A stretch of 64,000 nucleotides of DNA from Betaproteobacteria bacterium (GTDB taxonomy: Bacteria; Pseudomonadota; Gammaproteobacteria; Burkholderiales; Thiobacillaceae): positions 1 through 64,000 of the forward strand of contig JACRNB010000006.1 of the NCBI GenBank assembly GCA_016219425.1. The letters are read 5' to 3'. Positions 15,451 through 16,584 of the stretch are shown piece after piece (the first letter of the stretch is position 1; every line of letters starts with the position of its first letter). The notes beneath the pieces were generated by a model. That model was not told where the DNA came from and searched no databases. It saw only the letters and a program-made list of their open reading frames with translations. A program made the translations under genes and the position numbers.

Positions 15451-16584
<1,134 letters not shown>

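Follow-up and report, generated by a model that had tools for sequence, protein, structure and literature searches.

The 57-nt gap in an assembled tuf gene of a Thiobacillaceae genome: very probably an artefact of repeat assembly

The window considered here is the whole analysed stretch of 64,000 nucleotides, bases 1–64000 of contig C7 (71,595 bp), and the tuf gene that it contains lacks 57 nt. Very probably, the segment was lost when a repeat present in two copies collapsed during assembly, and the loss is almost certainly no biological feature. The assembly collapse is strongly supported because the junction sits exactly on the 141-nt boundary at which many contigs of this genome end.

The assembled tuf gene and the remains of the second copy

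The tuf gene (15451–16584, forward strand), encoding EF-Tu, is found at the tufA position, with rpsG and fusA upstream and rpsJ downstream, the neighbours being named from our reading of the translations. The ORF has 377 amino acids and is devoid of residues 48–66. Its translation gives a stretch of 23 residues (letters not shown), AAKNY being joined to HVEYETEN after base 15591, that is, nt 141 of tuf. Compared with the 396-residue EF-Tu of the same-genus genome G022, the segment absent at the junction (15591–15592, forward strand) is nt 142–198 of the normal gene, a clean 57 nt; there is no N at the junction, and the frame is open elsewhere. The join, the reduced length and the clean loss described in the earlier note are thus seen both in the ORF translation and in the comparison with G022. 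The same note described the loss as exactly the switch I segment, which is not accurate: the switch I loop spans about residues 40–62, and the loss begins within it, at residue 48, and extends a few residues past it into the next strand.

The ORF scores as EF-Tu. The G022 protein aligns with it across the full length (1–396) with 98% identity. The TIGR00485 model (NCBIfam, EF-Tu) scores the ORF at 696.1 bits in two stretches, above the cut-off of 522.4, while the intact G022 protein yields 763.3 bits in a single stretch. The motifs GHVDHGKT (P-loop G1), DCPGH (G3) and NKAD (G4) are all present in the translation. RGIT (G2/switch I), with the Mg-coordinating Thr62, is absent from the assembled ORF; we attribute this to the assembly, so that it counts against the sequence and not against membership in the EF-Tu family.

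The assembly consists of 16 contigs (3.10 Mb) and is rated 100% complete, with contamination given as 0.06. The earlier note assumed a full first tuf copy upstream of the window. No sequence precedes the window on its contig, and all that the assembly shows of the other copy is a pair of stubs, bases 1–141 of C5 and of C7. The contig C7 begins exactly 141 nt before a tuf stop: window positions 1–141 (forward strand) are the end of another tuf copy, 46 codons and the stop, at the tufB position before tRNA-Trp and secE. This stretch is identical to the last 141 nt of the window tuf (16444–16584, forward strand), and the copies part right after the stop codon. Likewise, the first 141 nt of the window tuf (15451–15591, forward strand) are identical to the end stretch of C5, the upstream end of the other copy, and here the copies part at the base before the ATG. 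Read in reverse, the start of C5 carries tRNA-Tyr, tRNA-Gly, tRNA-Thr and then tuf, and stops exactly 141 nt into the gene, at the base that corresponds to the left edge of the gap in the window tuf (15591). The order around the other copy is tRNA genes–tuf on C5 and tuf–tRNA-Trp–secE–nusG on C7, again by our reading of the translations. There are two tuf genes, identical over the 141 nt available for comparison at either end; immediately beyond the ORF they are unlike.

A search of the assembly with a full-length EF-Tu (E ≤ 0.001) found no complete tuf; the matches were the window ORF, the two stubs and five other sequences with 30–38% identity. EF-Tu is essential to the cell. Therefore the assembly omits some tuf sequence, or the ORF is wrong, or both.

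The 141-nt overlap at contig ends

The terminal 400 nt on either side of each of the 16 contigs were compared with the other ends and with the window. Exactly 141 nt are shared in 12 of the 32 ends, forming six pairs. In five of these, C10s–C8s, C1s–C6s, C3e–C6e, C3s–C4s and C4e–C9e, two contigs enter the same stretch; the sixth, C11s–C16s, is a pair of neighbours with a head-to-head overlap of 141 nt. The starts of C5 and C7 each have exactly 141 nt in common with the window tuf, bringing the count to 14 of 32. No shared stretch longer than 141 nt was observed among the contig ends (400 nt each) or between them and the window. Shorter shared stretches do occur, some of them at the same ends (127, 94, 88, 69, 58, 44 nt and less), and seven of the 18 remaining ends share nothing of at least 25 nt in both listing directions, or only such short pieces. 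In the six pairs both partners stop at 141 nt; the window tuf is the only case where a partner runs on, at nt 141, minus 57 nt.

De Bruijn assemblies run at k = 141 leave a recurrent overlap of exactly 141 nt at repeat borders, and 141 is the usual maximum k of MEGAHIT. One study (PMC9927493) describes the use of MEGAHIT with k-max 141. In the present genome, 141 nt marks the overlap length of the assembly. As expected of a repeat-collapse artefact in a de Bruijn assembly, one exact overlap length recurs at repeat borders (the 14 ends above), and the defect lies at an overlap boundary as regards its left edge, nt 141, where C5 ends. No contig end examined accounts for the right edge, nt 199, by a 141-nt overlap. 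By our own estimate, a deletion edge would fall on nt 141 by chance in about 1 of 1134 cases, or 1 of 377 if it is codon-aligned.

The window itself carries two further repeats. One, at 44958–45276, is a tandem-like direct repeat in which a 114-nt unit occurs three times (100%, 89% and 61% alike). The other comprises two direct 142-nt copies at 45645–45786 and 57549–57690, 86% alike and 11.9 kb apart.

We suggest the following course of events. A de Bruijn-type assembly with the overlap length of 141 would have broken at both tuf copies, so that one contig ended 141 nt into the tuf that follows fusA, and C5 ended 141 nt into the tuf that follows the tRNA genes. The former, 15,591 bp long (window 1–15591, forward strand), would have run from one tuf copy to the other, with 141-nt ends, similar to contigs observed in relatives. 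At a later step this contig would have been linked to the part of tuf that begins at nt 199, dropping nt 142–198. The position of the right edge may follow a site where two copies or strains differ, as one possibility. We infer that the real cell has a normal EF-Tu. Breaks of this kind have a precedent, as a paper on a 454 shotgun assembly of E. coli names tufA and tufB as contig breaks (PMC3045373), and another paper states that repeated genes, tuf among them, are kept similar in part by gene conversion (PMC5485169). Several observations count against the artefact: the reading frame is preserved (1 in 3 by chance), the junction contains no Ns, C7 continues in the expected gene order, the right edge at nt 199 does not fit a 141-nt overlap, other lengths are shared between contig ends (e.g. 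127, 94, 69), and the tuf gaps of two related genomes, described below, have left edges elsewhere than nt 141.

It is very unlikely that tufA has truly lost 57 nt in frame and persists as a dead or dominant-negative gene beside an intact but unassembled tufB. A truly deleted tufA would give the same contig ends, with a shared prefix of exactly 141 nt, and, the other copy being known only by its two 141-nt ends, an intact one could exist. The clean, N-free and in-frame loss in an otherwise undisturbed ORF also agrees with a real deletion, and so does the presence of tuf gaps in two same-genus genomes, one of which is possibly a real pseudogene. However, this reading requires the deletion to start, by coincidence, at exactly 141 nt. 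Further, a protein that keeps G1 and G3 and lacks G2 should be harmful when highly expressed, and the same deletion is seen in none of the 29 loci of relatives. At the edges there is no microhomology beyond 1 base in the 23 genes of relatives tested, a set that does not include the deleted letters of this species itself; accordingly, natural slippage between direct repeats was rejected. It is highly improbable that the cell encodes a tufA product devoid of the central switch I segment alongside a normal tufB. If it did, this product would not respond to GTP and could sequester tRNA or EF-Ts, braking translation.

Out of the three possibilities named in the earlier note, the collapse is the one favoured by the position of the junction, the dead copy needs a coincident deletion edge, and the divergent EF-Tu finds no support, given the 98% identity to G022.

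tuf loci of related genomes

The sample of relatives comprised one locus from each of 29 genomes, taken from the matches listed among 60 relatives searched. In 26 of these loci the spacing between a ten-residue motif (letters not shown) and HVEY is 38–39 residues, compared with 19 in the window, and all 26 carry RGITINT. Loss of the switch I motif RGITI is seen in none of the 29 loci examined. Of the other three, G013 and G018 show different gaps and retain RGITI in a shifted frame, and G008 has a contig, C7, that starts inside tuf, at codon 41, with switch I intact.

Contigs of relatives also break within tuf. Three of them, C28 of G001 and C63 and C52 of G003, stop exactly 141 nt into the gene, and in G008 the contigs C67 and C7 overlap inside tuf by exactly 141 nt. 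Other stops are at 127 nt (C74 and C80 of G020), 261 nt (C67 of G008) and 265 nt (C170 of G013). The contig C25 of G016 stops at 120 nt in a stretch from which the last 2 bases of the contig are missing; C61 of G017 gave no number. Stand-alone tuf-to-tuf contigs are C28 of G001 (15,807 bp), C63 of G003 (15,721 bp) and C25 of G016 (15,703 bp).

A strain mixture in the sample, with the junction joining tuf pieces from two populations, is extremely unlikely. Contigs can indeed start inside tuf, as C7 of G008 does at codon 41, perhaps owing to differences between copies or strains. On the other hand, the identity to relatives hardly changes across the junction (0.894 before and 0.900 after it in the case of G022), and the contamination value is low enough to speak against it (0.06). 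Besides, a junction formed in this way would still be an artefact.

Gaps in tuf occur in three of the 11 same-genus genomes examined across this part, which are G000, the present genome, and the ten with loci, out of 23 same-genus genomes among the matches. Their lengths are 57 nt (G000), 65 nt (G013) and 49 nt (G018). In C206 of G013 (L091, 8000–16662, reverse strand) tuf lacks nt 110–174 relative to C170 of the same genome, producing a frameshift. The order on this contig is fusA–tuf–secE, with rpsJ skipped, and tuf is followed by a tRNA-Trp remnant not called by ARAGORN; this looped order suggests a misassembly. In C107 of G018 (L095, 13500–16000) the gap also causes a frameshift, and between tRNA-Tyr and tRNA-Thr only the 3' part of tRNA-Gly is present; ARAGORN finds two tRNAs there as opposed to three on C5. 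The left edges of the two gaps are at about nt 109 in G013 and about nt 80 in G018. Either gap could be a real pseudogene.

We also surveyed genome_contigs for further cases, using a degenerate pattern with Tyr or Phe directly before HVEY...RHYAHVD. The survey covers deletions that end at HVEY where the preceding residue is Tyr or Phe, in contigs of at least 3,000 bases, and may have excluded records of the genome considered here. It yielded seven records, two from Patescibacteria, four from Berkelbacteria and one from Bacillota, a raw count with no denominator of normal genes. As all seven have switch I and a natural Tyr before HVEY, the survey provided no second case. The Patescibacteria and Berkelbacteria records (L054, L055, L057–L060) read GITIATYHVEY, and the Bacillota record (L056) reads GITINTYHVEY. 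The Tyr before HVEY in L054–L060 differs from Ala or Ser in those relatives of the window that are shown.

These results bear on the idea of a divergent EF-Tu that functions without the central switch I segment, which is hardly conceivable. In its favour, the rest of the ORF is highly conserved, and trypsin-cut EF-Tu without a switch I peptide was reportedly crystallised with GDP (1efm, a chain of 379 residues). Against it, the switch-I-less ORF would be the sole EF-Tu that the assembly yields, it has lost the Mg-binding Thr62, and every record in the survey (7/7) keeps switch I. A divergent or specialised EF-Tu was rejected on account of the 98% identity to G022 together with the absence of the loss from all 29 loci of relatives examined.

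Known systems and significance

The locus agrees with the usual bacterial tufA/tufB pair in the arrangement of rpsG–fusA–tuf, on the one hand, and of tRNA genes–tuf and tuf–tRNA-Trp–secE–nusG, on the other, as well as in the TIGR00485 score above the cut-off. It differs in that the assembled ORF has no residues 48–66, including RGIT of G2/switch I. The contigs stop inside the repeat as in the E. coli 454 assembly (PMC3045373), whereas here a join has passed the break at the cost of 57 nt. Trypsin-modified EF-Tu (1efm) is likewise shortened in the switch I region, but its form is made by a protease from the product of a normal gene and is not encoded. Our literature search on switch-I-less EF-Tu, tuf misassembly and the overlap length found no description of the present case among the papers listed.

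The gap carries no biological weight, and its meaning is one of caution: a near-perfect draft, with 16 contigs and 100% completeness, may contain a clean, N-free, in-frame deletion in an essential gene, placed at the overlap boundary of a repeat. Checking contig ends for one exact shared length helps to expose such artefacts. Protein databases derived from genomes of this kind may contain entries for a switch-I-less EF-Tu that does not exist.
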